A stretch of 64,000 bases of DNA. It comes from Rhynchonema sp. JSB1_4 (lineage: Eukaryota > Nematoda > Chromadorea > Monhysterida > Xyalidae). The DNA lies in contig JASAMV010000274.1 of assembly GCA_030248065.1 (NCBI GenBank), positions 26,829-90,828 of the forward strand, given 5' to 3'. The translations under genes were made by a program, and so were the position numbers. Below, piece by piece: positions 1 to 51,418 of the stretch. Each line of letters starts with the position of its first letter. The stretch's first letter is position 1. Under the pieces are notes generated by a model, which worked only from the letters and a program-made list of their open reading frames with translations, was not told the origin of the DNA and did not search any database.

Positions 1-2898
1 TCATATTGATCGGTCACCGTACTTGACCACGTAATGTTTCACACAATGACACCGCGAATCAAATTTGCAGTGTATAAAATGCGTCAATGTATGGGTGCGC
101 GCGTGAGCAGCAGTCAATTGGTGCGTTTTAGCCTGTTAGCTGATGTTTCAGGGTCTTCGTTTATTTCGCTGTCGTGAGCACATGTTGACTTGCTCGTGTC
201 CAGTTGAGCTGGTTGATTACTTTACAATCGTTTGAATCCGTTCTATTTTCGAGTTTGCTGAAATGAAAATAATCCTTGTGCGTGTGTAATGTGCTTATGC
301 AAAAATCTGCGCTTGCACCATAGCAACGAGGGGTGACAACAGGAAATACATATGTAGGTATGTATGGTCTGCTCTCGGTAGGTTCGTGTATATAGCTATT
401 CGCGTAAATTAGGGACATAAAATGTACGGAAAAGCAATTCAGTGGGTGGAGACATACACTGAGCAACATCGATAAATAATACAGGAACGTTGCCTGACCA
501 TGAGGTTTTGCAGGCCTCAAAGCACTCGCAAGGTCTGTTGATGCATTGTACATCACAGCGGCTCGAAGGCATGATTCATGCATTAATATTGAACTGAAGT
601 AAAGACATACTTGACAAGCGCAGTGAAAGCTGGCTCAATGATCTTATGTTTGCATTTTCAATCCACAACAAATAATGTTTCGGCTGTCGAAAACGGCTAA
701 CCTAGTGAATCGGCGGCGACCAAAAGCTATGCTCAGTACGCGTTTTGTTTCACGAACACGTAGAATACTCACGCAGCGATAATTATTTGAGCTAAAATGT
801 TGTTATTTCAAAAACAAACGGCAAGGGAAAGGTAAACATACTGGTCATGCTCGTTCGGGACATTTTGAACAATTTCATATACAACGACACCTCACGGTTA
901 TGCCCATTTGTATTCAACAGGTTTCCGGCAAGAAGTTTATGGAAAAAATATATTGTATCAGGAGTCAGAAAACCGCAAGAACATTGTCATGCACCTGTGG
1001 TTGGCGCAAGTTGTGCCTTTGCGCGGTCGCGTGCGAAACGTAACCTTTTGGTTGTTGCTCAGTTTGTGGATAGATAGCGCAATTCAATTGTAAAAAACTG
1101 AAACTGAACTTTGAAAAACAACGCGCGAGTCGTGCCGTGCTTGTCCCGGGCGCAGACAGGCACCAACAAGTGCTGTTACGCTTTCGATTCAAATGCGCGC
1201 GCATAACTTGCACTTGGAAAAAGTTACAGGTCCAATACCGTCACAGTTGCTGTCAGACTTGGGACCTGAAGTGCAACTCCTGGACCCTTTGGTGTTGCAA
1301 CGAAGCACTGTTTATTTTATTCGGCGTTTAGATTGAACGTTTTGTGACAGCGTAGCACTCGATACATCAGCTGCGTAACGCAGCACGGTGTGGCACAGAC
1401 ACCAGCATTGAAGGCAGTTAGCGTTGGTTGGTACAACTTCGTTCATGGATATTTTCTCAAGAATAAATAATTTCAAATAAATCTATTTCTCAACCGCGGC
1501 GTTCAAGTAAAATATGGCTTGTCGTGATCGGAGACGGCCAAATCGCATGAACAAAATCAAAATCAAAACACGAACAACAACGACATAGTCTGAAACGGGT
1601 GAAGTAGAGGATTGGAAAGGGGCGAATCCCGATGGAGTGCAAAGCAAAGCCGTTCGATCACGCTGCAATTGTTGCTCGCCTTTGCCAACAGACGAGAGTT
1701 CGGCTGACGGCTTCCTAGCGCTATCAATCCTCGGCTTACTTGCAAGGCCGACACAGAGGTCCTGGTCGTTGTTGATTACAGAAACGATTTGAGGTTCGCG
1801 GATGTATAAGTTGTGCTGAGGACATGGAACACTTTTTCAAGCATGGAAAGCAACACTATCACTTTGCTATGGCAGTGAAATGGTGCAAATACAGTACATA
1901 CAGCATGGCATAGAGCAGTCTACGTGACTTTATCGAGCGCGCTTTCAAAGACACAATTTGTCTTTGCGCAGTCTGAGAACACAAAAACTATCTGCTACTG
2001 ACAACATGCAAGGTCGGCCGTTGACTACATACATATACTGATAGCCTGCACATAGTGTGGTTATGCATGGGTTAGCGTGCCAGACTGCAATGAACTCAAT
2101 GTGCCATATACTGTCACTGGGGGTACGGTATAGGAGTCATTTGGTTGCTAAAATTACATTTCCACTCACCGCAACCCTTGGCAAACGTGGGGCATCAGCT
2201 GGAAACAGTATGGCACCCAGGCTGGATGCGGCGCCGGACGCTTTTTTCATGTATTTGGAACGCAAGTACTCACACAAGATTGACTGGCAGGGTTTATTGG
2301 GTCTCACTGGTAAAAGGCAAGATGGTCGAACACGGACAACGACTGCATGCCAGACAGACTCTCAATCGAACTTGCGGCATGAAGGACAGTATATTCCGGT
2401 GGGAACAACACAGGCACGAGAACTATACATGTAGGTAGGCGCGGTGTTATTCAAGGCGCCACCACACGCCTGTGGCTTCACTGCATCGGAGACCTGCTGC
2501 TCTTGCGGGCGAAATTTTGGAATTGAAAAAATAAAAACAACGGGCAAAACGCAGAGACGTTTACGTTTCTAAATGGAATGAAAAGCATCACGTGAGTCGA
2601 ACCAGCGGAAAGCGGGACGTTTTGACCTGCGTAACCTTGTACAGAAGTGTAAGCGCGTGGGAAGATTGTATGGTGCTGAACGTGACCACGTATCCGCATG
2701 CATGCTCAGCTTCTAAAGCCAAGTTTTTCGCTTCAATGCACCCATGTAAATGATATGAAGCACACGTGCTCATGCACCAACTGTCATCCGGGTAGCTTAT
2801 TTCAGGTTCAGGATCAACAGGAATCGATATCATATAAAAGCGCAGTCTGTTCGGAACCAGGAATATTTTTTCAGGATGGCCCAGAAAAGGACATTATA

Positions 2899-3081
2899 CG
2901 TATACTCTGGCAATTCTTTAAGGAGAAACTTTTCAACCGCGCTGCCTGATCCGCAAAGCGCATTATGCGTGCACTGGCTACAGAAGTCACGTGACCGCTA
3001 TAGCCAGTGCACGCATCATGTGCTTTACGGATCAGGCAACGCGTTTGAAATGTTTCTCCCAAAAGAATTGTCAGAGTATAC
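2899..3081. repeat. Long inverted repeat (hairpin element)
   Basis: Two arms of about 80 bases, 2899-2981 and 2999-3081, are near-perfect reverse complements around a short spacer. The outer ends read gtatactctg and cagagtatac. The structure is that of a small non-autonomous (MITE-like) element. No convincing target duplication was found, so the class is open. Confidence 0.7.
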
Positions 3082-4690
3082 ATACAGCTGTTTAGTCGGA
3101 CCGGCAGCTAAAATGAAAGTGGGAAACAAAGAGCAATGATAGCTTGGTATACTTATGCGAAAAGACATTGGTCGAAGATTCATCAAATTCATGAGGTGCA
3201 AGATCTTTGGATTCAAGTATTTCTTGGGCCCTCGAATTGCTATCATTTACCAGTAGTGGGGACTTTCCAGGTGCACTAGCTGACTACGCCCGAAATGGCG
3301 ACAATCGATATGAATACGTACCTCAATGACAACAACTGTTTATTCGAGTGCTTCAGTTGGCATGAATCACAATCATGAACGCTTTGTGCGAAGGCAACGA
3401 TGATCCATAATAACACAACGGAGACAGATGTGCCCACACAAAGGGCACGAGTTTTTCTGCAAATTAGTGCGCAACAGAGCAGATGGGCTACTGCCAAATT
3501 AGTCGTCCACAGACACTACCGTCCACCGTGTTTGCGCGGTATACAGTAATCCGAGCTAGCTGATGTTTCACTGGGGTTGTTGTTTTCGAGCGTACAGTTC
3601 AGGTAGAAATGGAAGTTCTTGCTGGGTAACAAATATGTATGTACATATACATTTGGGCACGGTGCAGGCAAACAGGCAGTGGTTAAAAACGAGCTTTGGT
3701 TTTAGCCAGATCCCTAACATTTGCGCAGGGAAGTATGTACAATGCAGCGTGAAAAATTTGATAGCTAAATGTGCAAAAATAAAATGGCCAGAAGTTTGGC
3801 GGGTACGCGTGTGGCAAAAAAACAAAAGTTCACCGAAGCGTGAAATGACAGCCGACATCGTCGGAGTTGAAAGCAAGAAGGTTGAAAGCCACAGAGCGTG
3901 CCATTGTCGCAAACAGCAGCTGCTGCTCTGATTTGAAGATGGACTGATCTCAGACCAGTGCAAAGTTTAAAGACACTTCTCAAGAAAAATCGTGTATTGT
4001 GCTTCATGAGCCATTGCCAAAATCCGAGGGACGTTCGTTGTCAAGCTTCATTTTAATGCTTTCTGCTGCATTATGCCACCTTTCTGGCCATGAATAAAAT
4101 GTGCCATGGAGCGATACCAAAACAACATGCGCGATGGCAGCGAAAATACGAGTACAGCAGCAGCAGTCTGTGACTGCGGGAGGTGAGCAGCCCATCAACA
4201 AGACGTTAGGAGCAGAGCCAAAAGTGCACGCGGTTTTTGTGTCGGCAGCGGCACACGAGATGCACGACGGTTGTGAGCGGCCATAAAAATCTGGTGAGCG
4301 CCGCCACACGCGCTGACAGCGTAAAATGGCGGGTGTGCTTTGCTGAGATTAGCAAAAAACGACTGCTTCTCATGTGTGGGCCGCTGGCTGTTTAACGCTG
4401 TGTTTGTATGGGAACTAAGGGACCGAATCATCTGAGTGCTCATCGTCAACCAATGCAAATCACTGAAGCAATTAAAATGATACCAGATGCATTGTCTCTG
4501 GGGGAGTATAGCAGGGTGGAAAAATAAAAAAAATAACAGAAAATCTTGCGTTTGTGAACGCAAAAGGCAGTCGCAGTTGTACAGCCTGATACCGAGCGGG
4601 CGGCATAGTCGGTTGTGAGACATCGTCGCTCTTTGTCACACGGTCGCGCGTTGTGTGAATTACAACATATACAGCTGTTAGGGAAGCTGG

Positions 4691-4768
4691 AAGCCTAGCC
4701 GAAGCGTAGGCCTAAGCCTAAGCCTAGGCCCAATCATAAGCCTAAGCCTAAGCCTTAGCCTAAACCCA
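4691..4768. repeat. Degenerate TTAGGC-like hexamer tract
   Basis: Imperfect repeats of CCTAAG (TTAGGC on the opposite strand) run through this stretch, with variants such as CCTAGG and CATAAG. TTAGGC is the telomere unit of many nematodes, so this may be an interstitial telomere-like relic. It is short and decayed, so chance amplification of a hexamer is also possible. Confidence 0.5.
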
Positions 4769-7505: not shown

Positions 7506-7800
7506 TTAGGGCTCCACCAGATAGACCCGAAACCCGAAACATAAATTTTTTCTATGTCCATGTTTCGGGTTTCGGGTTTTGAAAAAAACCCGAAACCCGA
7601 AACACGAAGCATGATAATCGCAAATGTTTCGACTGACTGTACAAATTGTGCACGTCAGCTACAAGTGGCAAGGCCAAAACATTTTCGATTATCATGCTTT
7701 GTGTTTCGGGTTTCGGGTTTTTTTCAGAACCCGAAACCCGAAACATGGACATAGAAAAAATTTATGTTTCGGGTTTCGGGTCTATCTGGTGGAGCCCTTA
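7506..7800. mobile_element. Harbinger/Tourist-type MITE with TTA target duplication
   Basis: The element body is 7509-7797. Its ends read GGGCTCCACCAGATAGACCC and the reverse complement, and the arms of over 100 bases are built from runs of ACCCGAAACCCGAAAC. A TTA triplet lies directly outside both ends (7506-7508 and 7798-7800). A 3-bp TTA/TAA duplication with a GGG-starting terminal repeat is the hallmark of PIF/Harbinger elements. It has no coding capacity, so it is non-autonomous. Confidence 0.8.
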
Positions 7801-9490: not shown

Positions 9491-9658
9491 TAATATTGCA
9501 GTGGTCAACTCAAGTAGTCATATCACTTCGTCAACTCACAGCAGCTCAGCATGAGCGCACGAGAAATAACACATGACATTCTGGGTGAGTTGACTCACGA
9601 CTACACAAAGTGAGTTGAGGAAGTGATTTGACCACTTGAGTTGACTATTGTAATACAA
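9491..9658. mobile_element. Small inverted-repeat element, possibly hAT-like
   Basis: The left arm (from 9499, CAGTGGTCAACTCAAGT...) and the right arm (ending 9650) are reverse complements over about 40 bases. Flanking octamers taatattg and taatacaa match at 5 of 8 positions, compatible with a decayed 8-bp duplication. The CAGTGG start also fits hAT ends. There is no coding content. Confidence 0.5.
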
Positions 9659-10183
9659 GCTACAGTGCACTACCATTCCTTCATGCGTTATGTCAATTCA
9701 AGTTTCAAGATATTAAATCGAATTTGGAACTGCGGTTCCCTTAGGTTCTTGGATATTAGGTGGCAGTACCAATACCTAAGCTTGCGCTTATTGTGCCGAA
9801 GTGCTACAACTGGTGCCAAAGCGATCACTAATGACGGTATACTGCATATTGTACCCACATACTATAAGTTGCGTTTGACAGAGAAAATTACAAATAATGA
9901 TACAAAGGTGGGTTGTTCAAGCATGCACATGGGATGGAGCCAATTTACCTCAGGGAATGGAGCTTATGTATGTAGGTATAGGTGTGCATGAACACTAACA
10001 AGGAAGTAAAGTAAAGTAAAGTGAACATGTGGGAAAATAGTTCAGTTTGCAACTCAAACCACAAATTGGTTACTCGCAGAGGGCAGGGCAACGAATATTC
10101 AACGCTGCTGCCCAGAGCGTTACTTGAGAACTTTTAGAACCACTGTAGTTGGCTTGATCAAGTTTTTATCACAGGAGTACTGG

Positions 10184-10483: not shown

Positions 10484-12782
10484 GATAACTGTATTATGTA
10501 ACCGGTGTATATACATTGTATACCGTATACGCATGTAGAGGTGGTACAAAGCACAAATGTCACCGTAGCGGAGTTTTCTCATCGGCATGGAGAAAATTCG
10601 AAAGTAAAAGAATTTCTCACTACAAGAACATGATGTACCGAAATACGAATCGCCAGTACTATTTGCATTTGTGGTACTTGAATGCGACAACAAATGCACA
10701 AAGAATCGCAATGTCATATTCTATGGAACTATTACTGAATAAATCAGGCTTTTTAGCGTTCACTCGCTAATGGTTGCCAGCAACGCGGCTGTGAATAAAT
10801 TTTTTTTCAAATGACACTGAATACAAAGGCATAAAGTGAAAAGAAAGTACCGAAATATATACATACAGTAGGTGGTATGTATGTTTACCTGTAATATGTA
10901 AATGTGTTCTGTGCATCTGCACCACCAAAATGTGAGCAGTTCGCAATTTGACAGCAATAAGGAGGTTTTTTCTGAAGAAAAGCACAAAAAATACATCAGA
11001 ACCAGGACAACTGATGTACTGTAAATGTATGGATACGGGCAATGCGAATATACGTGCTGTGGTGTGGTATCTACGTACATTGCTGATGTTTCACTGGTGT
11101 CGAAGAATTCATGTCCTTCGTTTGTCATAATGAGGCTACAACTATATACTGTACGTTTGTGATCTGTGCAGAACAAACCAACTCGGTCGTCGGCCGCATA
11201 CGTATAGTTCACCAGTTTAAATTCACCAAAAATATGCTTGCGCGCACGCTTCACTGTGCGATCTATTCGAAATTTCAAACCACCCGCCAAAACATCCAAA
11301 TTTCTTGAAAAGCATAGACGGGCAGATGTTGCACAGCGGGCGGGCGAAACATCAACAGGCACAAAGGAGCGGCTTTGATCTTGCATTCCGGCTCAGGTTA
11401 CTGGAAACAAAGGGGACCCGTCATGCAACGAAATGCGACATGCGAATATTTGAGATTGACAGCGTGTGAGGATGGTGGTGGGCGTGAATTCTCATGAGGC
11501 TCAGGTATGAATCCGGTCGCACATGAGCTTTACAGATCTATACATAATCAGAAAACGCAATAAAAGTACAATATCACGCGGAGAAATTTGGTTTTCATGT
11601 GGCATCGTCAACGTCCCCACACGCGTGTAGTGCAGCTGAGCCCAGATTTTGATATTTTTATGAATGAAATGCGCGCTCAGGTTCACACAAACAAGCAATT
11701 CATGCAATGAATTTAGATATTATATTTTCTTGTTATACATGACTACCCTGATAGTGAAATAAACATTGAACTACAGGAAAGAAGTATCAAGCATACTTAA
11801 TCAATTCGTCACTCCATATTTGACAATGATGGCATGGTGCACATTGAGTTTCTTCCGATGGCACAACAGATTAGCAAATGTCGACCTCACTCGCTGAATC
11901 CTGATCACAAAATCGAACAACTGCAAATTTGGCAAGCATTGTTGGCTGACAGTGTCCTGTTGTCAGTGTTATCCATGCTCGCACGAAGCTTAAAATTGTG
12001 GCTTGCTGCAGGAGTGGCGTGCTGCTGATGGGCTACGATAGATTTTTCGTGCCCTTTGACGCATGAGGACAGGTGCACCGAACACACAATGTGCACACGC
12101 ACATGTGCCAACAAGTGACAGGGCGTTCAGGGTCATATGCAGCTGGTTACACACCACCTTGTTGTGTCTTATATGGTTAAAAATTAAATATTATGAAAAC
12201 GAAACGTCTGCATGTGAGAGAGAGCGAGTGATTGTTTTGTTGCGTCTGAATCAGGGGACGACTGCTTTTGTTTCGCGTGGATTGCACAGTGCAACCTTTC
12301 AAATCAGGCAGCATGAAGAGTGGAAACTGTGGTTGGAAACAGCAGCGCTGCCTGTGCGCATGTGAAGAGAACCAACAATAAGGTATACACGTAACGTGGT
12401 ACATACCTAACCAATACAAAATACCCTGCCTATCGACGGTATGCTACTGATAAAACGTGAAACTAAAACACAAACCAGAGTGATGCAATAAAACTAGCGC
12501 GAAAACAGGCACATTGTGACTGTTTACCAGTCAGCATACAACGACAAATTGTAATAAACAATCGTGAGGTTACCAGTTTTACTTTTTGGTGTATTTACAT
12601 GCCTATGTGTATGTGCGCGGTGCACCACATCACATACGGAGTAAGCAGGTCAAGTCAAACACGTCACTTGCATGGCACACTGGTAACGAAATGGCGGACA
12701 CGGCAGTATGTTCAACAACTACAACGATTGCGACTAACAAGGTGAGATTGATGTTTCATAAATCCATTATTTCACACCCTCG

Positions 12783-14576
12783 ATGTTCACAATATCTTCC
12801 TCCATCCACCACTCGCAGTGTGCGCACGGTCAAACGCGCTCACAGTTGGAATGCGAGTACAGCTCCAGTCATCATACGAAACGGGCGTTGACGCCAGATC
12901 AGGTGAGAGACACGCCAATCGGTCATCTTCATAATTGGCTGGTCACCAAGTTGGCTGGTGGTCCTGTCCTGTCTTTGTCACGTGACTTTTTGACGCAACA
13001 GATTTTGCTGACGGTTCTAACCTCAGTTCAATCAACGCTTGTTTCCGGTGATTGAGTCGTATATCAGCGCGATGCAAGCCACGTACAAGCACAATCAATC
13101 GGAGGTGGCTGATGTTTCAACCATCGCCTACGGTAGCGGGCCAAGTCAGAAAATTGACTTTTATAGCCCAATCGAAAGTGTGAAGGGCGGTCGCACGGTT
13201 GTGGCAATGGTGCATGGCGGATACTGGCAGGTGAGAAAGTGTACGTGCCTTTACTGGATGTAAAGCGGGGTTCAGGTCACATAAAGTGGCTGCACGCGAG
13301 AATCACTTAACAAAATATAATATCTCATGGAGCTGATGGAGCGTACACACAGTACATCTATAGTTCTGCTGAAACATCAAGAAATCCAATTTTGTTGAAA
13401 CCTCAAGTGAAACGCATTCAGTGCCTGCATTTCGCCACAGGAAGGGTCCCGTTGTCTGTTCACGAGCGGTGTTGGTCCATTGTGCACAATCGGCGGATGT
13501 GTGGTCGCTTGCATTGGATACGATCTGGCACCACACGCACACATCGGCACACAAGTGCAGCAGATATGTGACGCTATAAAGGTATTGTACGCCACTCTGT
13601 TTGAGAATAATTTTTAAGTTACTCATTCGAGAACTTTTATCGATTTGCTGATCTGGTTTCAGTACATCCTTAGAAACATCGACCGAGACGACGGTGGATT
13701 GGTGCTAATGGGGCACAGTGCCGGGGCTCATCTAGTGGCACAAGCGTGTGTCACCCTGACTCAGCAAGGCGGCATAGATTGGAAGCACGTGAAACATCTG
13801 CTGCTCGTGTCGGGTGTGTACGATTTGAGGCCACTCGTTGGCACGTACATCGGCGAACCTGTTGGGTTGGTTTAATGTTTTGTAGTTGTGTACAGTTGTT
13901 TGGCTGATGTTTCAATCAAACTTGAAAAGGCAGGTACTGCAACGAGTTATGCTTTGAAACTTACAACGTGGCCAACTGTATAGTCTCGTTAACATACTGT
14001 TACTCATCAAAAAATCTGACCACACTTGCCACATGAGCCCCAAATGAGTGCAAGAAATGAACAAAGTAGAGTACAAGTAATATACTCTGCAGCAACACAA
14101 AGTGGAAGGTAATGGTAGCATGTACGTCGACAACGATTCGATCAATACAGTATGTACATCGAGTTAGATGGTTTTTGCGAGTCACAACGACATAACAACA
14201 AGCCCTAATCACTGCTACACCTTACTATTTCATCATTACAGGCTAACCAGCGAGCAAGCTCGAAGCCTGTCGCCGCTGGACCACACCGCCGAACTAGCCA
14301 AGCTGCCGATCGGCATTTCCATCGTTGTGGGTGAACAAGAATCTGAAACATTTGTGAACAATTCAAAGACGTTCGCTCAGTCTCTGCTCACACATGGCGC
14401 ACACAGCACTGACATGCAGGTGGAACTGTGACGTTGCAGTTACATTGTTTTCAATTGTCTTTTTTCGTAAATCGTTGCATTTTCAGATTGTTCCCAACGT
14501 GGATCATTTCACAATCGTTGAAAATCTACAGAATCCCGAGTATTCGCTGACAAAGTTTTTGATCGAAATGACTTGA
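12783..14576 (+). CDS. AFMID: Kynurenine formamidase (arylformamidase), six exons
   Basis: Hydrolyses N-formylkynurenine to kynurenine and formate in tryptophan breakdown; cytosolic alpha/beta-hydrolase. Exons: 12783-12902, 13027-13230, 13441-13581, 13663-13844, 14242-14419, 14487-14576. They join in phase to 304 residues, close to the 303 of the human enzyme. The N-terminus carries the family's LE-x-EYS motif. The oxyanion motif HGGYW is at about 103-107, the nucleophile motif GHSAG at about 172-176 (Ser174) and the catalytic His in VDHF at about 282. The position normally held by catalytic Asp (GxxDSPE in mammals) reads GEQES, so Glu249 replaces Asp. The exon 4 donor (GTACAT) is the least certain junction, because a longer reading to about 13869 is open but breaks phase. 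One TGATGTTTCA copy is coding (ADVS, 13110); others lie just upstream and in introns 2 and 4. AATAAA follows at 14622. Confidence 0.92.
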
Positions 14577-16646: not shown

Positions 16647-19600
16647 ATGGGCAATGGCGAGTCGAACGAGAGCCAGCCAAGCAGACGGGCTGACGAGGCC
16701 CAGGGCACCAATGGTTACCAGACGTTACCACACAACTATGGCTCGTCGTTTCGTCGTTACTATCCGCAAGAATACAGACAGCGCAGGGCGGCCGCTACGT
16801 TCTTCAGGTTTGGCATTATTTTCAGTAGCCCGTGGTGTGCAAAAATCGGGCATTGCTGGTTCTATAAGGTTTCGGGCCGAATTTTGTCCATTTACCATGC
16901 TTAGGATTGGTCAACACTGTCCCGAACCGTTGTTTCTTAAATACTATTTCTACGTCCCTCGCTGTTTTGTTCGTGTCACCGACTCCATTTGTCCTGTTCC
17001 CAGAAGTCACTCTCTGCAACTGTACTTTGTCGACCCACACACGAGCGAGCCCGGGTCACCGATCGCGAAAAAGCACCGATCGAGTCCACAATCGTCGATT
17101 CGACCGAACAGTCTGTCGAGCTTCAATTCGCTGCCGAGTTGTCCCGAGTTCCAGCACATCGACACGCACTATCCCGGTGCTGGCGGCACGCCGTTGGCCG
17201 ACTTTACACGACATCGATTGACGGTAGGTGTCCAGGAGAGAATACATAGTTTTATTTGCCAGCCTCCGCGGGAAACACTCAACTCCTCCAAGCGTGGGGC
17301 CGTATCGATTCTGTGCCGAACCGAAAGCAAGTGTGACGTTGCCAGCAGCCGCGTCCATCCATATGGCAATGCACAAAGTTGATAACGGCCCGCACGGTGA
17401 ATTGATGTCAATCGAAAGTTGTTGTTGATGCCGGTAGATAATGCAGCCAGCGACACTAACTGAACATGATCAACACCAAAAATAATATCAGTCAGTACTT
17501 TTTCCATTCAGTCCGACATTCTGGAGGAAGTGAGCCCGCGCGCGGAGGAGGCCGACATCGAGCACAATCCACAATCGAATGGGCATGATAACAGCTGCAA
17601 TGGACATGATAACAATGGGACACCGTTTGCGGTCGACGAAATGCAGGTCGACAGCGACAATTATGTGACACACATGCAGCACAGTGTGTCATGCAACTTC
17701 CATGGACGAAGTGAGGTTGGCTGGTTACTCTATGCTTCTTGTCATGATGAGGTCTGAATACGTATAATTTTGCTTATGAACGAAAATTCTAAGAACAGCT
17801 ATATGAAACATCAGCAGGTTTCGAGTCCATCAAATCGCCAGTTCGACAGCTGCGACGGATCGCCCTACAGCCGACGCAGACAAACGCCATCGCCGATATT
17901 CACATTGAAACACAAGTATGTAAGATTTGTCGTTTGGTTATCCCAGCATTGTACAATTGTGTTAGCCCGAATTCTCGAAAGCGGACGCGCCAATTGGGGG
18001 CAGTTGCGGCACCGGGGGTAGTGGTGGTGCTTTCCAGAAATCGGGCCACTGTGAAGCGGCAGCTATGTAGCCGGGCTGCGACAATGACACGTATCTGGTG
18101 TTTCATAATTTTTGTGCATTGGGTAAAAAACCAATTTGATGACAGCAAAGTTCATTCATACTAGACTCTTCAGCATAACGTCATTTGCAGGCCTGCCAGT
18201 GCGATACACAACAATCGATTTATCAGTCATTCATCCACCAACTCACCGTACGCCCGGCCGCTTGATGTTTCACGCGGGGCACATAACCGCCCACCGATTC
18301 CCCCAAATTCCAACCGAACGGCCGTGCGCAATATATTGCTGAGTCGACCGCAGTCGGCCACAGCAGCCTGGGGTACGCCCAGTCCACAGCATTTGCAGCA
18401 GGGCAGAAATATTGGTGGGTGGATGGGGGATATTTTGAAACAATTGCCGTGCAGCAACGGCGGGTCATATCAGGTATACAGTAGGTATGTATGTAGTAAG
18501 GGACACCCAAGTGCTCAACCAGGCCTATCATGAACTCGTGTGCTTCACGTTGTTTGAATGCCAGTGAAAGCCTACCATCGGAGTGCGTGCGCGTCTCTAA
18601 TCCTCCTCTGCGAACTGTGTGTGTTGGTGCCCGTTAGTCGCACGGTATGACCATGTGTTAAGCAAAACAACGTGATCGATATGCGATCGCTCAACAATAC
18701 GTGTATAACCAGGCGATCGTCATATACTAAGAATCCGTCATGTTCGTCCAAAAATTCTAACAAACTATGTACATATTGTATGTATGTACATATGTTGGAT
18801 GCGGGGGTATATGTACGTCATTGTGTGAACAAAACAGACAATAATTGAGTGCCAGGCGGGTGTCACCAGCTCAAGTCAGTGTGTGCTTCAGGCCAACTGT
18901 GCCCAACTCCAGACATCAAGCACCATTGTTGTTTTACAGCCACACACGGTGCCGCGTGGCTGCAACAGGCCATCAGCCAGGCCGGCAGTCAACTGAGCGC
19001 AACGTTACGTGGCAGCACACACAGTCTCACAACCACCAGCAGCAGTTTCATCGAACGTATTCGGTGGCGAAAAGACGACTCTCAGGCGAAAAGGTGAGAA
19101 AGTTTTCTTATCTGACGGTGAATATTCAATGTCACATAAGAAAATTATGCATTTGCCCCCTCCTGCCCCTGCACTGATGTTTCACACACGCTCAGACGTC
19201 GCCACGCGTTCGCGAGCGGGTCAGCACTATCCGAAACGAGCACACTCGGCCGCGACAGCATGGCCAGTCTCAACTCACTGCAAGATGGCCGCACGCCGTG
19301 GCCGATACCCTGGCTCGAGGCCATATTCCTGCCGGAATATCCCAACAAGGGACCGATCAATGAAACGCATTTTCAGGTATAATTCTTCGACAATTGAATT
19401 TTGACTGAACTTCAACTGAATCATACGTCAAGCTTTAGAGGGCTCACTGACGGGATTCCTACAATACGCAGGAAAGCTGAAAGGTCTTGCACTTACGATG
19501 CGCATAAGTGAAGCAAAGAGAATGGGCACGTTCAGTGAACATGCCATATGATGAAACATCATCGATTTAGGTGATTGGCACGATTGCCTCCGGTTCGTTC

Positions 19601-28700: not shown

Positions 28701-28997
28701 CCATAAAAATAAAATCTGAGACAATCCGCGAGAAACCCCCACAGAGTGGTTCTCACGCAAACCGACCAGACGTCGTGATGTTTCACCATCTATGTAGATC
28801 ATCAAATTAAGGCAGACTAATGCAAGGACCACCATGGCCTTCCTGACAAAACCACAACACTGGGCCATGTCATGTGCCTCAGTTTCGACATCGGTATCTC
28901 AAATCGAAACCATGCTTTCAACGATGGTCCAACCAACCTCGCGTTTTCGCACAAGATCGTGGACGGCGCGGCGACGGCGCGCTTTGTGACAGGACAT
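25701..28997 (-). CDS. DCAF15: DCAF15-like protein (CRL4 substrate receptor), 12 exons
   Basis: Exons in coding order (high to low): 28997-28938, 28595-28492, 28345-28231, 28121-27988, 27914-27749, 27452-27327, 27156-27065, 26993-26935, 26807-26697, 26614-26528, 26433-26214, 25800-25701. All phases match, giving 457 residues. Resemblance to vertebrate DCAF15, recalled from memory, is spread in order. FLALSADGQHLISY in exon 3 resembles the FLGFS..GRYVLSY segment. Exons 9-11 (HVEHII...DYRIETVEVLDCP, then VEWDF) match the C-terminal half, and the last exon (SDVMMKILENLD) matches VDMVMKWL. DCAF15 links targets to the DDB1-CUL4 ubiquitin ligase with DDA1. The vertebrate protein is near 600 residues because of a disordered insert apparently missing here. 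The last intron (25801-26213) holds a MITE. The identity is good but not certain; another DDB1-associated protein is possible. Confidence 0.72.
25944..26162. mobile_element. TA-flanked MITE inside the last DCAF15-like intron
   Basis: Terminal repeats of about 40 bases (TAGTCCAGCC... on the left, TAGTTCAACC... on the right) both include TCATGAGACGACTTTTTT. A TA dinucleotide abuts each end, as left by Tc1/mariner-type transposition. It has no coding content. It accounts for about half of this 413-base intron. Confidence 0.75.
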
Positions 28998-33100: not shown

Positions 33101-36100
33101 GAACTTGTTACACAAGAAGAATTACATTAATCGAGATTTATCGGTGCCGCAAAATTTCGAGAACTGCTCCGGACAATAAATAACTTTTACCTACTTTGGC
33201 CGAAAACAGTCGCATCACTAAATCTGGTCGGAAAATTACCGTTGTCTAGTGGACGTGCAAAGAGTGACAAAAAAGTTGGACCCGATCACCCGTGGCTACA
33301 GAGCAACGCGTGTGTGTGTGTCAATGACGTCACCTACTTGGCCGGACTGCCCGTAATCATCGTTTCAGGCACATTCTCCAATCGTGCTGTGTTGCCAGCA
33401 ACGCCGGTCACACATTGCGGTGTCGGTGTGGACATGCTGCGTTCAACCGCTGTGCGCTGATCGGATGGCGTCGCACAGCCGCTCGTGGTTGATATAGGGT
33501 CTGTGAAACATCATCACTGTTGATACGCGGATGCGCCACCGTCGCTAGACAGTTCGGGCACAGAGAAAGAGCAGATTCCTATGTGTCTTCAAACGGCTTG
33601 CGATTTTCAGATTCTGCTTTCGTTTCTTTGCTCAGGGTCAATGGCCTTGTTCAAACCGGCTCTGCTCAATCGTCCGTCGTCCACCAGCATGCCCTCATCA
33701 TGCCATTCACACAGCTCAATCACTCACCATTGATCAACTGTGCGAATGTGCTGTTCGTATCGTTCAACGTCAACATCGTCGGCATCATATCGAATCCGCT
33801 GTCGTCCGTGCCCGATTCCGAGCCATAGCGCAATGCTGCTGCGTCCAGCCGCGGTTGTGCATCGGCTTCAAACAGTATGGTGAAGTATTATATATAGTCC
33901 AATAGAGTGCGATACTGCTTGGCCAAAAGGGTATGGGCTCTATCAAATTGCACACATTTACTTACCAACTTGACTACGACTGACAACGGCAAAGCAAATG
34001 CACTTTTTTCTTTTGCGGTACGTATAGCTCGAAGTTAGAGCACAAATTCGACCAGCGTAGAGCGCAGTAACAATTAATTTGGAGATGGGGAACAATCTTT
34101 GCGTTGTTCTCCAACTCAATCGCAAAATGCATGTGGTCCAAACAACAACGGGTCTTCCTTGTCATTGTCCAATCGTAGCCTTAGTACATACTTAACGTTT
34201 GCCCCCTCCAAGTCGTCAATCGACTGACTCATCAACATACACATACAAGCCCAACCTTGTCGATCAGCAGTGCATCCGGACACGGGTTTGTGCAAGGGTG
34301 TTGACGACGGACTGCTGCTCTGCGACTCACCACTGCCGCCCGACATGCGTGTGAACTGGTCACGCACCATTTTGGACAGACTCGACAGTGTCACCATACG
34401 ACGACCAGTCGTCTCATTCTCGCACGCACATTTCGCGTCAACGTGCGCTTCGGTCGACGCTACAACGATTGTGGCTGCACGAGGGAACACAATGACAGGT
34501 TCGGATATAGTGTTCTCTTGGTTATGTGACTTTTTTGTCTTGACGTTAACCACAACTGCCCCAGATTCCGACCAGCACAGCAGTATAAATATTAGGTGGG
34601 AACAACGTTTACACTAGTCTAAATTCGTATCCTGTCTAATCTTGAAAGGTTCAATATGTAACAAGACGCATGACCAAGGCAACACGGGCAGCAATCACTG
34701 ACAATAAATTATCGGGAAAATAGTTTAGGCAAGAAATCTATTCGGTTTGCAAACACAATCGTCAATTTTATAATAAACAAATCAGGTCAAAATGCTCACA
34801 TTGTTCATTATCCATACGCATGACAGGCACAATCCTGAACACGAGATCGTACAATTCCATCATGCTGGCTGATGTTTCATCCGACTCACATATAGTCTCG
34901 TTGGTGCTCTCGTACAACCGATCGGTAGACGTAAACACAGCGCTGCTTGTTCGACGTTTCAGCAGCGGCAGGATCTTGCCTGCAATTTATCAACAAACAA
35001 CATCAGTTCATTCACTCTTTGCGTCATTAACAAGAAGCCCTGTCATTCATGATTTTGAAAGCCATAGTAGCTAACACTACTTAATTGCCCATCGTCGCAT
35101 GTAAGTCGAGCCCAGGTTACTGACAGTGCCTTATCCCAGCTTAATTAGACGTTTGAATATACACGGGTCGCAGCACAATACATTGATGCTACGTAAGCTC
35201 ACCTCCAGCAGTATTTGGGCTCACGCATGAATCAGACCCACAGCCAAGGCCCGCAAACTTGCTATCCTACAAGTTCACAAGTAAATCACACGGAAACCAT
35301 CACTCATTCGAACCCGTTCGTCGTTTCAGCATGCAGTTGTGAAACATCAGCCAGCCATACCTTTCCCCTTCTGCACCCAAAGTGGCGGGTCGAGCTGACT
35401 CCAGGGCAACAGCGCGTTCTCGAGACACGACAGAAACTGTATGGGATGTTGACCGGTCGGAAACACAATTGGCGGGTATTGGATACCATCGGCACCGACC
35501 TGAGCGTAAAGTGGGTACTGCGTTGGCAAAAATGAAATGGTCGTAGATGCGCCGCAACGAACGAGCGAAGATAGATGAATGTAAAAATGAAGTTGAGCAG
35601 CGAGCAGGTTCGAATGAACAAGCACCTGTGATAAGCACAGCACTCATCAAACGAAATCCTATCCCCATTTCATCAATGATGACTCATGATCTACAAACAC
35701 GTAATGATCCAAATAAAAGCCCCGCCAAGAACATTGACGTGACGTGATCATGACGTGTGCCCGTGCACGTTACGGTTTTCCTAACGAGCAGACAGTTTAC
35801 TAATACGGGCAGGAATGCGCAAACAGAATTTGATCGTACCAGGTGAATTTGTAATTAGAGTTGCTCACAGCAAAAGATGGCGGGAAACAAAACACGAAAG
35901 GCGGCATCAAACTTGGTGATCGGATCGGATCTGCCTTGGTCACAAGACGTCTTTGAATGAACGGAATTTGGAAATGTATTAGTGCCTCAACTATCAACAA
36001 TCATAGAAGTTGTTTCTCAACACCGTTGGAAGCTAATTGGTGGCACCAGCACCTTTTATAATTTCAAAAGAACTCGAGAGCAAAACCGATCCGATCACCA

Positions 36101-39100
36101 GCTCCATATGCCAACCGACCAACACAATGCTGCCCCCGATCGCGTCGTTATTTTTCAGGCGTTGCGCATCGTCAGTGTTGTGCTGATGGTGGTAGTGCAG
36201 GTAGACAATATCGAACAGGTTGACGTTGAGCGAGTTCTGCCACAAATGGCTGCAATTGCAAGCTGCGTCGTTACGACATGAGAACTGATCGCGAACGATG
36301 CTTGATCGACAAGGTATTCATGCATTTAGTGAGCACGCAACGCAGACACTAAAATCTCAGGTGAAACACACTTTCTACGTCTGATTGACCGGGGGTGTCA
36401 ATTTTAGAACTGCCAACTATACTGGCGGATGAAAAACGTTTTTTCACGAAAAAAACTGAAAAAACCGGGTCCGTCTGAGACGTGAAAAAAACGAAAAAAC
36501 TCAGCCTCCGGGAAACATAGTTCTTTTTCAAGAAATGTTCCAAAATACCTCATTCGGGCTTCCCTTAGCCTTATACACTGCGGTTCTTTATCGTTTTTTC
36601 AATTCGTTCGGTTTTGTTGCACGGTTTATAAAAAACCGGTTTTTCGCCAGTATGCTGCTAACAAGTTTGTTTTGTGCAGCAATGTGTTTTTTCAAGTGCC
36701 CACTTGATTCTGTTTTTACAGGCGATAGGCCAGGTAGGACATCGTCAGTGCAAGTAAACACGTCAACTATCCATGTGACTCTGCACCAAAACACCAACAA
36801 CGCAGACCGAAAGTGAATGATTAACTAACGAAGATTGTTGTAATCGTCTGATTGGGCTGACAGCGGTGGCCGGCTGTGACTCGGAGTGCATCAACTCATT
36901 TGGTGTCCACTTTACCATCAGATCACCGCTCGCATTGTGGTGCAACGAAAGGTAGCCCTTCATTGGTTTTGCACTGCCAACCTGCACCGCAAACCACAGC
37001 ATGTAAGAGCTTGAAAGCAGCGTTTATTTTTTCGCAGATTCGTGCCCATTCGGCCAGCAAGTTCTTCAATCACTTGACAAGTATTTTTGTCAGTGATTTT
37101 ATACAACCCACGTTCACTGATAAAATTTAAAAAACTAATGTTACGCTTTTTTAAACTGAATGAGAAATGAAGATTGATTGTTTGGCTGGACGAACTGGCT
37201 GGAAAACCGACCGGACAAACAGTGACGTTGTTCTTGCCATACAACAACGACGATCGATTGTTCTGATGCAGCAAACGGACGTATTCGCGGCCAGCGGCTG
37301 GCGCTGACGACAACGTGCCCAGCTCGTCCAGTCCACTGCCAATTGACGGGTTACGTTGCACCTGCGTGTAGAGGGACATCCGACGCTTGAAGATACCCGT
37401 CATTCACATTCACCCGACATCTCTCTGCATCGTTCCTACACCGGTGGTGTGCAGACCGTTGTTGACTGTTGGGATCAACGCGCTCGCTATGGGAAAATTT
37501 GCTTTTTTCGGGACGATCTGTCAGGTTTCCCGAAAATTGGAGTGCCACGAATTTGAGTGGGATACTCGTAATGTGCAAAGTATGGCAACAAGCCACCATC
37601 GCACTTGCATCAAGAAAGGTCTGTGGGGACCTCTTGTTTCCCTCAACCTACAAAGTTAGACTGGAGCAGGACACCGTTGCAGTCTGGCATTATCGACCAA
37701 AATCGCACCCACAAATCTAACGCAATGCGGGCCCACCCCACAAGGCCAACCCGTAGCGTTAAATAAATCATATCGTTTTGATCCAGATCCAGGTACAGAA
37801 AAAATAGGCTGCACTCGAAGTAGACATGGACGATTGCAATCACAAACGCAACTGACTGATGTTTCACTAACAATACTCACCTGCAACGGTTTGCGATAGG
37901 GCGACTGTAGGCCACCGTCACTGTGTGTCGGACTGTGCAGCACGCCGGCCGTGTGTATCCGATGACGTTGCACGAGCTCGTTGGCCGGCGGGTCATTGAA
38001 GTACGAATCCGATGTTCTCATACGCGAGAACTCCAGTGCACATGGACCGGCTGTGTGATGGTGACAGAAAGGTGATGTAGTAAATTGTTGAAATTCTAGT
38101 TTGGTTTAGGAGATTTGTGTGATTGATTATCCATCGCACACTATTAGTTTGACGTTACACAGCACTGCAGCCAAAATTACTATAATATCAGTCATGTTCT
38201 GTGCGTCTTTTATTCTTCTAAGCTAAATATTGAGATCTCCCTGAGTTCCTGACCCCCAACTCAGCTTTGCTTCACCATATCACCAACATCAGGCTGGACA
38301 CATGCGGTTGACGCCAAATAATAGGCACAAATCAATCAGGCCGCGGCGCAAAATAAACCACTTTTCTGCTCAAGTCTTGATATAAAGTAGCTTAACGGAT
38401 TACAGCCGAAGCAGCATCGCACCATCAGAGCGCCCCTTTAATAAGCGCACATTTTAGCACATCAGTTGGTCCGACCCCGACCACAACGAGCAACTGCTAC
38501 AATGAGAACACGCACAGCATTCGTTCGTGTGTAATTATAAACTACAACATCCTTTTGCTGCTCCCTCGCACCGAACCCCGGGTCTCAATGCCCCAACAAC
38601 ACCACCCATGCATGCCGACGCGAATATTATTCTATGCGGCATGTCCATTCGTCAAAATCGCAATTACTATCCATCACTTAAGAAGAAAAGGCCACAAGCT
38701 GGCAGCAGACAGCGTTTGCGCCCCGTTTGTGTTGACAGACAGGCAGCCACGGCAAAGGATGTTTGTTTGTGCACGGACTGTCCCAAGGCGAATAAACCTG
38801 CGTTGGTTATCTATCACCGACTGTGCGATGTATGTTTGACGACGCGTAGATTAGGGATGGATGCGATGCATAAACAGCAGGTGGGGTGGGGCACGTTAAA
38901 CCCTCCCCCACCGACAGACTGCAGTCAACCACGCAAAGCTCGCAATGAATGAATAAATGAACAGCTTTGACTCGCCCATTCATCAGCGGCGCAGCGCAGT
39001 TAGCAACTGTCATACGAAAGTGAATGAAAGACTTGTAAGCCGTTCATTCATTCACTCTGGCATGCACAAGACACTCCTGCAGTTCTCATGTGGTGGCTGT

Positions 39101-45643: not shown

Positions 45644-48600
45644 TTAATGGCCAATGTATCGACAAGAGTCATCGGCGTTTGTACATCGTTGCGTGGCAGC
45701 ATCGAATCTGGGCGTGTCTTTGGCACATGTCAATATCGATTGCAATCCGTTCAAACAAGCCACAAATTGTGTGCAGTGCGCTGGATGTGCGTACAAACCC
45801 GGCGAGCGGCCACGACAGAATTTGGACACGTCTGCAATCCAACTGAACAAGCTTGAGAAGAAAGTGGTGTAGTGAGAATGAAAGAATCTCATGTGGTAAA
45901 TTTTACGAAATTTTCCCATGCCATGCGGCGCTAAATTTTTAATACCTGCCCCAAAATTCAAAAACGTCCCACAGCGGTGTTGCGAGATCTGAATGTTGAC
46001 GACAGATCCATTTATACATAGTTTGTAACCCAGAACAACCCCACCTGATTCGATACTAAAATCTCACGTTACAACACAAAATGCGCACTCTCTTTTGTGC
46101 AAACGTTCAGATATTTGCTTGTATCAGAATTGTGACACTTAATGTGAAACATCAGCTAACCAGGGACATGTACATCGATGACACGCAGTGTGGGCGTGCT
46201 GCAAGCGTGCACCAGCAACGAGGTTGTGCATTTGCCTGTGTCAACGTCGAACGCCCGACCCTGTGCACAATTGAACGCCCACGCTCGACCACTGTTATCG
46301 TCATTATCGGTTAATGTTTCACAGTAATAATATCGGGCACAGTCACTCGGGTCGCGGTGGTAGCGCGAGCCTTTGCGACCCACGCAGCTGAACTCCGGCT
46401 TGAAATCTGCAATATGCGGCAAATTCACACTTTCCAGAAAACAGCACAAACTAAAGACCGATCAATTTAGCTGTCTGGCAACGTGTTTGACGTTGCTCGA
46501 AATCAGTGGCATTAGTAAATTGAAAATACCGTTCATACAAACTACAAAGCACGACCAAGGCAGCTCATCCTATCGATCGCGTATACCTTTGTGCTGTTTG
46601 GTGCCACAAGGTGCAGCGACGTCGGTTGGACTCAAGCATTTGCGTCTGCCACCATCGAACACTTGACCAACGGGACATTCTTGCCGGACCACCAGTTCGT
46701 GTGCGTGACAGAGAACGTATGAACGACAGTCAGCTGCGAAGGATTCGATTGGTTATTGGAATAAAACATTTCCATATCATCCTGTCACCGACGGAGCAAT
46801 AAACCAGCAAAGGTCTGCTCCGATAACGATCATTTGGCAGTAACAGCGCGCGCTCTTCTGTCCACACCCGTCCAATCAGCACCAACCTGGCACCGCATAG
46901 AATCCATCATCGAGCACGGCGCACAGCACGACCAGTTGTGCTTCGGCACAAGCACTCAACAACGACCGTGGGGCACACACGTTTCGTCGACTGCAATAAT
47001 TAGTGTCATGTACATGACAGCGAGCTAAACATGCTCCGCACCACAACAACAAATTTCAAAAGCGTCAAGCCTACGCCTGACCTGTAAAGGGCATCAAACA
47101 CGGGCTAGTGCACTGCTCGAGTGAACTCATAATGCACTGGCTGGGTGCGCCTTCTGGGTCAGGAAAAGTAAGGCGTCCGAAAAGTATTCTTTCTCCCAAA
47201 TGTATTATCCAACCATGCACGAATTTGCGCTATTCCTGGTCCATTATAACCGCCAACAAAAAGTTGAACTGGAACGTCAGTCACCTGTCGAAAGCGGTGC
47301 CAGGAGGACACACGGTTTGACGGTCATGTCCATGTGAACACGTGTAGAATACGGACGCACAATCCTCCGGCGCGTAATTGCCATCTGGTTTGCTCGTGCA
47401 GTCGTATGGGGGCAGAACTAAGATGTTCAAATGTGGACTACAAGCAATGACCAGAGCTATTTTTCCCACAAAATCTTGATTCATTGATGAAGATCAAACC
47501 CACTTGATGCCTTCGCTGGTTCGATGCTGGCGGTCGTTGTGCGCGCCAAGCCCGAACAAATCGGAATCGAAGCGAAATAATCGCAACGGGCTGCAGCCAA
47601 CCATGATAATGTTCACAGCAGCTCATAGATTGAAAAATATGCTTTCGAAATAATAAACAAACGCACAAAGTTCAGCGTCAAAGTAGAGCAGCTCGTCACA
47701 TTTGCGTACGATCGGCCGATCATCGACGCCACAAACGATGTAGAATTGGGAACACGGCTCGTCGGGCCACGCAAACACCGACAGATCGTGATCGACGCAA
47801 ACATCTGCAATGTACGGGTCGACCGAACATCTTTCTCAGGTGTTTAAGCCACACTCCGGAGGAACAGTTAGTTAGTTAGTTTATAGCGTCGACACCCACT
47901 CAATAATACATAAATAAGAAGATTAAGTGAAAGAAGCATAATTACAAGACCGGGTGTGGAGTTTACGGGCATGAAAATAAATACAAAACAGGGTGTGCGA
48001 GTTACGGGAATGAAAAATAAATACAAAACCAATACAGGAAAGGGTGAGAAGGTGGACGAAATCACGGACAGACAGACACAGACAACATGCAAGCCACACT
48101 CCGGAGGAACAGTCGGAAACTGGCACACAAGCGGTGAAAAACACGGTTGATTGGAATCTCGTTGTCATGCGCGGGAAAAACCCTAAACTACGTTTCAAGA
48201 AGGAATCACGTACCGCACAAAAATTATGCCTCACTCAGGCAGCCCTCCAAATTTCAGCCCTAAGCTACGCACCTTGATGTTCGTGAAACATCACCTCGGT
48301 CAATCACTAACCGTCAGGTGGTGTTCTCAACGGTCGTGTGGTGCTTTGTACATGGATGGTGGATGGCGTGGCCGGACTGCCACCACAGGTCTTCACAAAT
48401 ATTCCATTCGCACATCGTCGGCTCACAACATCGAATTTCAAGTCACCCCCACAGCTGAAATAATACATATTTCGGCATACGATTTGGTCAAGGCATAAAT
48501 TTGCAAGAAAATCGCACGGCCGTTGTATGAAAGAAATTGGCTGACAAGCGAAAACAAATCACCGAATGTTCTACTACACCCCAAAACACGGACCAACCGT

Positions 48601-51418
48601 CGTCTGAGCGCCATTCCATTGGCACAAGTGAAATAAATGGACGAACACGGTCGATTGGGATGTGGGTAGTCGGCCGATCGTCGATGACCACAGTCGAAAT
48701 TGATGTCTGAAACATCATCACGAAACAATGCCATGTTGTGAATTGATCTCGTGGCGTATTTCGGGATACTAGCGCCAAAAGACGCCTGTCATACCACGCA
48801 CAAACGCCGCTAGGAAGCAAGTACCATGCCAAAAAAGCGTATTTTCCGCGGGCTTGGCCGCCGAAAGTCGAAAAATTCCAAATATTTGTGAAGCTAGCAC
48901 GTGTTGAAAGATCCCAGCTGCCCAGCGAGAGCTGCCCGTCAAACAAAGTCAGAAGCGCATCAACAGCCATCAAGTGCATACCATCATATTGTCGCCTGCT
49001 GGTTCGGGTGGGGGCGGACATGGTGGTGCTGGTGGTCGGCTGTCCGCCGCAAATGAACAGAAACTCGGGGAACAGGCACGAATCGCTCATCACGTCATAG
49101 ACCAGTCCCTTGGTGCAATTGCGCTCGAAGCCCGACGGATTTCCTGTTGCACATTGGACCACTGTGTCAAACACCACAACAACAACCACTGTCAGTTAGC
49201 AAACATCAACCTCAGCCTGGGGCCGATCTCGGACTCCGGAAATGGCCAGATTTTCTTTAATACTTCTTTAGTATCACACATTCCAGGTTTTACGCAAATA
49301 ATAAGCAACTTTCATGCTATTTAAACATTGGAACCACTTTCGAATAATATGCTTCATGAAGTATCTGGCCAAGCGCCATGTGCGTTACCGGCCCCAGACC
49401 ATTTACAACGTGCCAGAGTGTGCACTGTATGTACCTTCACTGCATGAGAAGAACACTTGCGAACAGGCATTGCGTGGATCGGGATGATTGCCGACTGGTT
49501 GGAAGGTACAGTCGAAATGGCCAGATTGCGTGAAACGACCCGGCAGACGCGGCTTGACGATCGCAAACTGTGGTGATAGTGACCATTGATTGCTGGCTCA
49601 CAAACATGGGATGATATGCACCTTGCTGGTGTCAGTTAGGGCTTGGTTTGATTTTGTGTCTAAATGATTTCGTACATTACACCAAACGCCACTGTGAAAC
49701 AGCAGTCAGCCGGCTCCAGTTGTGCACTGGCTGCATAACACTAGCGTGTTGCGCAAAGACACACAAGGGCAGCTGGCTGAGGTTCCTTTGATTGGCGTAT
49801 TCAAGAACACTTCGATACCAAATAAACCAGACACCGACGGGGCAAAGTGCATACCGGACATGAACCGACGCAATGCGCTGTTACCTGCTCTCCACCAGCA
49901 CTGTCCATGGACATGACCACACAGACGGACACTTGATCACGTGGTGCACATGTGTCACGCTCGGCATCGTAGTACAACACACCCGTCGGTGAACAGTGAC
50001 GACGCACGGCACGTTTCGAGCCTGCTGATGTTTCACTACGTTGTTATTACCAATTATACGACATATGAACATTGCAGAACGACGAATCAACCCTTGCCGG
50101 AGACTGTCATTATTTTTACTTGGGCCGTATTTCGGAGCAGAGTTCGAGTTTGAATTTCGACCAGCGAAAAGGCGTTCACAACATGCAAGCACGGAACCGC
50201 TTTGACGATGGTCTCAATCACCGGCACAACTCCATCGAAAAAATACGAACTACACAAATAATAACAAGCATAGTCTCCGTCCGCGGATGTACTGCCTACG
50301 TCCGTCAAAAATTGACACCTTGGCCCAGGAGACGCACACCTGGTGAACACGTGAAATAGATGATCGAACAAGGACGGTAGGGATCGACAAAGTTGCCGGA
50401 CTCGCGTTGCGAACAGTCGAATTGGTCTGGGTGCACTGGTCGCGCCTCGCCTGGACCTGGCTGCTGTTGGTTCACTACCGGACCAGGTGGGATGACGGCT
50501 GCATTTGTCGATGACTAAAATATTGTTGTAATGATACAACCAATTTCAACACATGAAAAGGATGTGGCTTCAACGCAACTCACGTGTTGATTGAAACCAG
50601 ACTGCCGTCTACCGGCCTCGGGACCGCTGTGAGGAGGACCGGGTGCACCTGTGCGCGCGACAAACTCATCGGTGGTGATCGAAATTTGTTGACCCAGTTG
50701 CCTTGATGTGGAAAAAATTGGTGTTGTATTTGACTGTGGACTTGTTTCGATCGGTGCACTGCTTGAAGCAAACTGTCCACTGGTCATTGTTGCAGACGTG
50801 GTTTCGACGCTTGATGTTGCTGATGTCTGAAATAATAGCACATCAAGCAATACTGGCAACAGAGCACTGGCAAACTGACAGTTGTTGACGCAAACGTCCA
50901 TAACGGTTATCCAGTTTGACAAAGAACCCAAGCAACATTCTAGAGCTTGACATTCAGCAAGTCCAACCGTTATGATGATCTCCGAAAACGTTTGGACAAC
51001 GGAATCACTGCTGCTGCTAGGCGCAACCGTTGTGCTTTCCGCTTGTTTGGATGTTGACGCAGAGTTCGCCGTTGGCTGCCAACAAATTCGGGCATAATTC
51101 GTGAAATTGACGGGTACAGGACATTTCGTTTTACATATCATGCAAAGCGTTTCATATAATGAGGCAACCAACAGTATCGTAGCAGCAGCACACCTCAGGC
51201 ACAGCATCCAGTTGCTCCTCATCCAACATGATGTCCGTGCCCTTCACGGTGCGATTGTCCGAGCACGCAGCCACTCTGTGCACTGGCAGACACATCTCGG
51301 TGCGCTCATCGTAGAACAAACCCATCAGATGGCACTCCGCAACACGACCGAATAACTCGCCTGTATGTACAATGTTGGTTGGACAACCAAGTGACGTCAC
51401 AGAAAGTTTGTGACGCAC
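45644..51418 (-). CDS. Peritrophin gene 2: multi-domain chitin-binding protein, 5' end not found
   Basis: Secreted-type protein with about nine peritrophin-A (CBM14) domains that bind chitin. Exons in coding order: 51418?-51194, 51075-50968, 50826-50584, 50514-50340, 50021-49885, 49567-49435, 49143-48982, 48706-48598, 48454-48312, 47804-47667, 47590-47504, 47417-47285, 46990-46887, 46733-46587, 46406-46161, 45831-45644. Phases match from the first listed donor to the TAA stop. Exons 2-3 encode a Ser/Thr-rich linker. Domains show the six-Cys pattern, for example QFDCSQRESGNF, NFDCGHRRSADYPHP and KFCRGRSPGLYAHP. From exon 4 on the order matches the C-terminal half of the upstream paralogue (53652-61433), so they arose by tandem duplication. 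No signal peptide or start codon was found above 51418, where an open frame fades next to a repeat. The N-terminus may be lost, lie in an unrecognised exon upstream, or the gene may be a decaying copy. Confidence 0.83.

Follow-up and report, generated by a model that had tools for sequence, protein, structure and literature searches.

The question raised by this stretch of DNA is what a single ten-nucleotide word, TGATGTTTCA, is doing scattered along it on both strands. The stretch, referred to here as the window, comprises 64 kb (positions 26,829 to 90,828 of contig JASAMV010000274.1). A preliminary description reported 26 exact copies of the word between 141 and 50035, 14 in the + and 12 in the - orientation. 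These were confirmed, as were the two stretches said to be free of copies, 3571-11083 and 50036-64000. The chance expectation given there, about 0.1 copies, was slightly too low: 100 dinucleotide shuffles of the window yield a mean of 0.36 and a maximum of 2, and the conclusion that the word is in excess stands. Its spacing is mildly uneven in 5000 random placements (largest gap, P = 0.044; gap variation, P = 0.024). The excess is a property of the whole genome, which the preliminary description had proposed to count. Its 204 Mb in 5,747 contigs hold 37,556 exact copies, 18,829 on the + and 18,727 on the - strand, and the reversed word, used as a control, occurs 345 times and is about 109-fold rarer. 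The genomic density is 0.18 per kb, and that of the window, 0.41 per kb, is about twice the mean. When up to one mismatch is allowed, 92,371 occurrences are found against 15,893 for the reversed word, and a 19-mer extension, TGGCTGGCTGATGTTTCAC, occurs 871 times with at most one mismatch and its reversal not at all.

The identity of the word emerges from the genome's own small nuclear RNA (snRNA) genes. U1, U2, U4, U5 and U6 genes were located with Rfam models. For 23 of them, the 100 bp preceding the gene were searched with a weight matrix built from 121 exact dispersed sites, with no snRNA loci among them; the ninth U2 match (L037, below the cut-off) and four of the nine U6 matches were left out of the scan. 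The best match lies at -48/-47 in all eight U2 genes, at -45/-44 in eight of ten U1 genes and at -56 in four of five U6 genes, making 20 of 23 genes with a match at a fixed position, and at all 20 the opposite strand scores lower. The weakest three (L029, L036 and L047) have E values near 0.05 per gene, yet lie in the same place. The exact 10-mer is present upstream of two U1 genes (L043 and L046) and at -47 in the one U4 upstream region examined (three genes located), and TTATGTTTCAC stands at -46 in the one U5 region examined (eight genes located). The U2 gene L032 carries the 5' half of the dispersed type, TGGCTGGC followed directly by TGATG, base for base. A second element, GAnnGACTACC, follows shortly downstream in six of the ten U1 genes and in the examined U4 and U5 genes. 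This fixed site upstream of all five classes of gene indicates, from sequence and position, that the scattered word is the core of the genome's proximal sequence element (PSE), the snRNA promoter element, the U6 form of which has diverged. In other animals the PSE of snRNA genes is bound by SNAPc (PMC3499247). Among the options listed in the preliminary description a protein-binding site is the one that fits best, and nothing observed pointed to a replication, recombination or DNA-elimination signal, at which no test was aimed. The statement there that no described element has this consensus does not hold: besides being the PSE core, the word has as its last eight bases ATGTTTCA, a core motif of Caenorhabditis elegans 21U-RNA genes.

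The extent of the conserved unit was determined from 142 sites with weight-matrix scores of at least 14, found in 292 kb that include the window and exclude the snRNA loci L029-L047. The matrix that selected them was built from 102 exact sites, drawn from all loci then sampled, and identical 55-bp surroundings were counted once. The sites have in common only positions -10 to about +10, a footprint of about 21 bp with a consensus of roughly TGGCTnGC[TGATGTTTCA]C. That the ten core positions are 96-100% fixed follows from the way in which the scan was built. Upstream, C is preferred at -10 (0.37), T at -8 (0.44), G at -7 (0.35) and G at -6 (0.41); nearer the core the preferences are C at -5 (0.43), T at -4 (0.45), G at -2 (0.50), C at -1 (0.42) and C at +10 (0.45). 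Beyond this, just two of the positions displayed exceed the chi-square line, offset 21 (T, 0.41) and offset 58 (G, 0.35), of which the second may be a chance preference. Only five near-duplicates remained among the 142 sites, and their removal left 137. The flanks do not align, as the preliminary description had claimed when it set aside a decayed long repeat, and the flank comparison that it suggested revealed no ordinary transposon family. A unit of about 21 bp is too short for a decayed transposon, and its size suits a DNA-binding complex of several parts. A dispersed transposon, a miniature inverted-repeat transposable element (MITE) or an insertion footprint was rejected on these grounds, the flanks being unique, not alignable and devoid of terminal repeats.

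Strict conservation of the word itself is doubtful. Its 30 one-mismatch forms occur 72 times in 263.6 kb of sampled sequence against 47 expected from an order-4 Markov model, an expectation inflated by TGATGTTTCA itself. The excess lies mainly in TAATGTTTCA, AGATGTTTCA, TGATGTTCCA and TGATGTTTCG, and the one-mismatch forms may in part be decayed copies. The contigs sampled beyond the window's own were picked for carrying copies, so that the density in the sample is not representative, and loci L006 and L008, which overlap L005 and L007, were excluded from the site counts. Copies are not paired (seven of 69 neighbour distances are below 300 bp, against 8.9 expected) and neighbours show no favoured spacing or orientation. 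Avoidance of open reading frames (ORFs) was not seen either: 28 of 90 sites fall within ORFs of at least 130 codons, which cover 0.281 of the bases.

Downstream of the dispersed copies a TATA sequence begins at offset 15-21 in 14 of the 142 sites, against 0-4 in 13 control windows of equal width; once near-duplicates are removed (137 sites), the 5-wide sum starting at offset 17 reaches 15 over a background of 1.4. The U6 genes have a TATA element, GATAAAAGG, in four of the five upstream regions examined, somewhat farther on than in the dispersed sites. As judged from sequence, the TATA-bearing dispersed sites are arranged like polymerase III type 3 promoters and like the genome's own U6 genes. 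Most dispersed copies consist of the PSE core alone, with no TATA, and in human a PSE without TATA directs polymerase II (PMC3499247). An Rfam scan of the window detected no family at its cut-off; the copies there consequently do not precede recognisable snRNA genes. Unique flanks and the lack of an Rfam family are as expected if every unit makes an RNA of its own. Among the 137 sites TGA is also commoner at offsets 32-36 (5-wide sum 25 versus 13, standard deviation 3.7).

The closest described counterparts are the promoters of nematode Piwi-interacting RNAs (piRNAs). The C. elegans 21U core motifs are given as CTGTTTCA and ATGTTTCA, with an A/T-rich spacer of 35-42 nt (PMC3597512). The piRNA promoter and SNAPc motifs of Plectus are described as almost identical, the SNAPc motif of Romanomermis retains GTTTC, and the same account holds nematode piRNA promoters to have been co-opted from snRNA promoters (PMC6436959). 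The USTC complex, which includes SNPC-4, binds the Ruby motif of these promoters (PMC6317315). The dispersed sites resemble the Ruby motif, and especially its SNAPc-like form in Plectus, in the ATGTTTCA core, in the many scattered copies with unique downstream sequence and in the near identity with the genome's own PSE; they differ in having no YRNT, no AT-rich spacer and a TATA in about one site in ten. They also differ from Plectus in number, 37,556 exact copies as compared with the 3,082 motif sites stated for P. murrayi (PMC6436959). With the snRNA PSE and SNAPc the likeness extends to sequence and orientation, position at snRNA genes and, in a minority of sites, the PSE-plus-TATA layout of polymerase III type 3. 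Some seventy SNAPc loci are cited for human cells (PMC3499247), whereas this genome has tens of thousands of dispersed cores, which are followed by no known snRNA and lack the second element seen at the U1, U4 and U5 genes. Among the titles listed in searches of the literature, neither TGATGTTTCA as a regulatory motif nor a PSE scattered at such a scale was found. Over-represented short words are known from bacteria, HIP1 being an example; these likewise are short exact words far in excess genome-wide, but TGATGTTTCA is not palindromic and is tied to an identified promoter element.

On balance, and by no great measure, it is probable that each copy is a stand-alone minimal promoter for a short, locus-specific RNA. 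SNAPc, or a complex derived from it such as nematode USTC, would bind the dispersed PSE core and recruit an RNA polymerase, polymerase III at sites followed by a TATA and polymerase II at the others. Transcription would then start some 45 nt downstream and yield a short RNA specific to the locus, a layout that would be that of nematode piRNA genes. SNAPc binding, transcription, the size of the RNA and any link to Piwi are what we infer beyond the observed excess, footprint, PSE agreement and TATA. Several observations weigh against such promoters. A YRNT initiator is not enriched (at offsets 40-50 the 5-wide sums range from 41 to 56, the background being 51 with a standard deviation of 6, in the 137 sites), and the only single-offset excess, at offset 18 (19 versus 10), falls within the promoter; a sample of about 140 sites might not reveal an initiator that is weak or variable, but would hardly miss one of 21U strength. 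No AT-rich spacer is present, downstream composition being nearly flat, and there is no peak of T-runs within 100 nt. GACTACC is found at offset 14-26 in none of the 142 dispersed sites, which thus lack the second element. The form TTATGTTTCA of the U1 and U5 genes is not enriched among the dispersed copies (2 versus 2.3 expected), so that the dispersed set is narrower than the set of PSEs. The matching site is also absent from two U1 copies with identical upstream regions (L041 and L045) and from a U6 fragment (L072). If the copies are transcribed at all, the absence of YRNT and of an AT-rich spacer means that they do not simply replicate the 21U-RNA genes.

Other readings account for parts of this pattern. 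As a special case of the stand-alone promoter, the copies could be true 21U-RNA promoters, each producing a single 21U-RNA bound by Piwi, as is the case in C. elegans, Pristionchus and Plectus. The identity of the core with that of C. elegans (PMC3597512), a copy number of the right order (25,883 piRNAs are stated for C. briggsae; PMC9683057) and the unique flanks, use of both strands and dispersal, as in Pristionchus and Plectus (PMC6436959), speak for it. Nevertheless it is rather unlikely, given the unenriched YRNT and the spacer that is not AT-rich, and a survey of nematodes found neither Piwi nor piRNAs in those clade I and II species that it covered (PMC4323106). It is also unlikely, slightly more so, that the copies are occupied, without being transcribed, by SNAPc or a Myb-domain protein related to it and that the sites organise chromatin. 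Extra TFIIIC sites do so in other eukaryotes. A footprint without start, spacer or terminator signal would be expected of such sites, as would the lack of a favoured orientation or pair spacing; a passive site would not be expected to have the promoter-spaced TATA that 14 of 142 sites show.

That the word is a core promoter element of ordinary protein-coding genes is improbable. The copy number is on the order of a gene count, and a near copy, CGATGTTTCA (L026:1818), together with TATATAAGG, lies upstream of the ATG of a 182-codon, zinc-finger-like frame. Frames of at least 120 codons follow 7 of 107 sites (0.065), a small excess over random positions (0.032) and the opposite strand (0.020), but for frames of at least 60 codons, which follow 22 of 107 sites (0.206), there is no excess over random positions (0.190) or the opposite strand (0.225), and the proposal was set aside on this result, the test being a weak one in an intron-rich genome. 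Equally little probability attaches to a separate sequence-specific protein whose site resembles the PSE by chance. The dispersed copies do vary less in sequence than the PSEs of U1, U2 and U6, and they lack the second snRNA element; against this, the best match to their matrix falls at the same fixed position in 20 of 23 upstream regions of snRNA genes.

On the stand-alone promoter reading, tiny switches like those that nematodes use for small regulatory RNAs may number tens of thousands in this genome. A more specific form of the proposal is tentative and rather doubtful: some 37,000 autonomous snRNA-type promoters, each with a distinct short RNA and without a 21U initiator, would serve an independent or ancestral surveillance of the genome by one promoter and one small RNA at a time, transcribed mostly by polymerase II and by polymerase III at the TATA sites, in an animal lineage, possibly a nematode one that lies outside the groups from which piRNAs are known. 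The autonomous promoters without 21U initiator would not depend on the host being a nematode. In a lineage lacking known piRNAs, a scattered PSE core would reveal either an early stage of the co-option or another small-RNA system of like construction. The present case suggests that a whole-genome motif census may point to such a system from DNA alone.

The host lineage was approached through COX1, located on contig C2636 (L073), where the mitochondrial order is COX3-like, COX1, ND3-like (COX3-like and ND3-like read by eye). Among the 120 listed of 7,999 matches, the best is 76% identical, the named ones at 62-65% are mostly insects and other arthropods, with the nematode Heterakis at 64%, and no Plectus is included, from which it may weakly be concluded that the host is probably not Plectus. 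In a tree of 32 hand-picked rows one starred group unites the arthropods, an onychophoran and a divergent row (P0017), and another unites the query with 14 further rows; Heterakis falls between the two. At residues where Heterakis and the query both leave the arthropod consensus, 16 of 32 agree, and relatives of the query agree with Heterakis at 10-17 of 31-36; the controls give 2 of 7 (onychophoran), 1 of 8 (tick), 3 of 7 (bathynellacean crustacean) and 5 of 21 (P0017). With such small controls, this pattern is suggestive only; it would fit a nematode outside the Heterakis group. SL1 was not found by word or by Rfam model, a weak negative in that the model gave no match in any control genome either.

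Copies of TGATGTTTCA in the window, and one related site. Offsets are counted from the first base of the word.
Feature	Position	Strand	Basis
TGATGTTTCA, PSE-type core	141..150	+	exact match
TGATGTTTCA, PSE-type core	3561..3570	+	exact match
TGATGTTTCA, PSE-type core	11084..11093	+	exact match
TGATGTTTCA, PSE-type core	12749..12758	+	exact match
TGATGTTTCA, PSE-type core	13110..13119	+	exact match
TGATGTTTCA, PSE-type core; TATA starts at offset 17	13370..13379	-	exact match, flank read
TGATGTTTCA, PSE-type core	13905..13914	+	exact match
TGATGTTTCA, PSE-type core	17804..17813	-	exact match
TGATGTTTCA, PSE-type core	18263..18272	+	exact match
TGATGTTTCA, PSE-type core	19175..19184	+	exact match
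TGATGTTTCA, PSE-type core	19552..19561	-	exact match
TGATGTTTCA, PSE-type core	19802..19811	+	exact match
TGATGTTTCA, PSE-type core	26352..26361	+	exact match
TGATGTTTCA, PSE-type core	26749..26758	-	exact match
TGATGTTTCA, PSE-type core	28603..28612	-	exact match
TGATGTTTCA, PSE-type core	28776..28785	+	exact match
TGATGTTTCA, PSE-type core	30264..30273	-	exact match
TGATGTTTCA, PSE-type core	31772..31781	-	exact match
TGATGTTTCA, PSE-type core; TATA starts at offset 17	33504..33513	-	exact match, flank read
TGATGTTTCA, PSE-type core; TATA starts at offset 21	34870..34879	+	exact match, flank read
TGATGTTTCA, PSE-type core	35340..35349	-	exact match; inside full consensus TGGCTGGCTGATGTTTCAC 35339..35357 (contig 62167-62185)
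TGATGTTTCA, PSE-type core	37857..37866	+	exact match
TGATGTTTCA, PSE-type core; TGGTTAGC immediately before	46145..46154	-	exact match
TGATGTTTCA, PSE-type core	48284..48293	-	exact match
TGATGTTTCA, PSE-type core	48708..48717	-	exact match
TGATGTTTCA, PSE-type core	50026..50035	+	exact match
One-mismatch form TGATGTTCCA, then TATATAAGG at PSE-TATA spacing	23662..23671	-	flank read

The related forms that were said to add about ten copies do exist, with 14 occurrences of AATGTTTCA in the window, but they are a mixed group. At least those at 22682 and 22707 are part of another repeat, which lies at 22585-22993, has relatives in L010, L012, L033 and L034 and carries AATGTTTCA as an inverted pair about 25 nt apart; its copy in the window has inverted arms. 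The repeat is distinct from the dispersed 10-mer and explains some of the AATGTTTCA forms.

The window has further features of its own. Near-perfect long inverted repeats at 7503-7803, 23227-23539 and 40395-40942, with arms of 110-165 nt that are 91-97% complementary, are probably of the foldback or MITE-like kind. The stretch 57417-61340, with cysteine-rich ORFs on the minus strand, holds nine 123-nt direct repeats at spacings of 283-663 nt, and the repeats resemble an array of chitin-binding-type exons; a Pfam search with one ORF of this stretch and one beside it found nothing. Pfam searches with five ORFs of the window gave no families, and a protein search with one window ORF gave no match. 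Of 90 frames scanned, one, not specified by the search, matches Pkinase (1.3e-15); the + strand frame 20460-20936 has kinase-like motifs and is probably the coding sequence for the end of a protein kinase domain. Two matches to organellar/viral family-B DNA polymerase were obtained, one unplaced among the 90 frames and the other (3.9e-18) in a frame of contig C15, outside the window. The same contig contains L026, with features at 1818 and 5452-6345, among them the near copy of the word with TATATAAGG and the zinc-finger-like frame; this is possibly a self-replicating DNA element that uses a PSE-TATA promoter.

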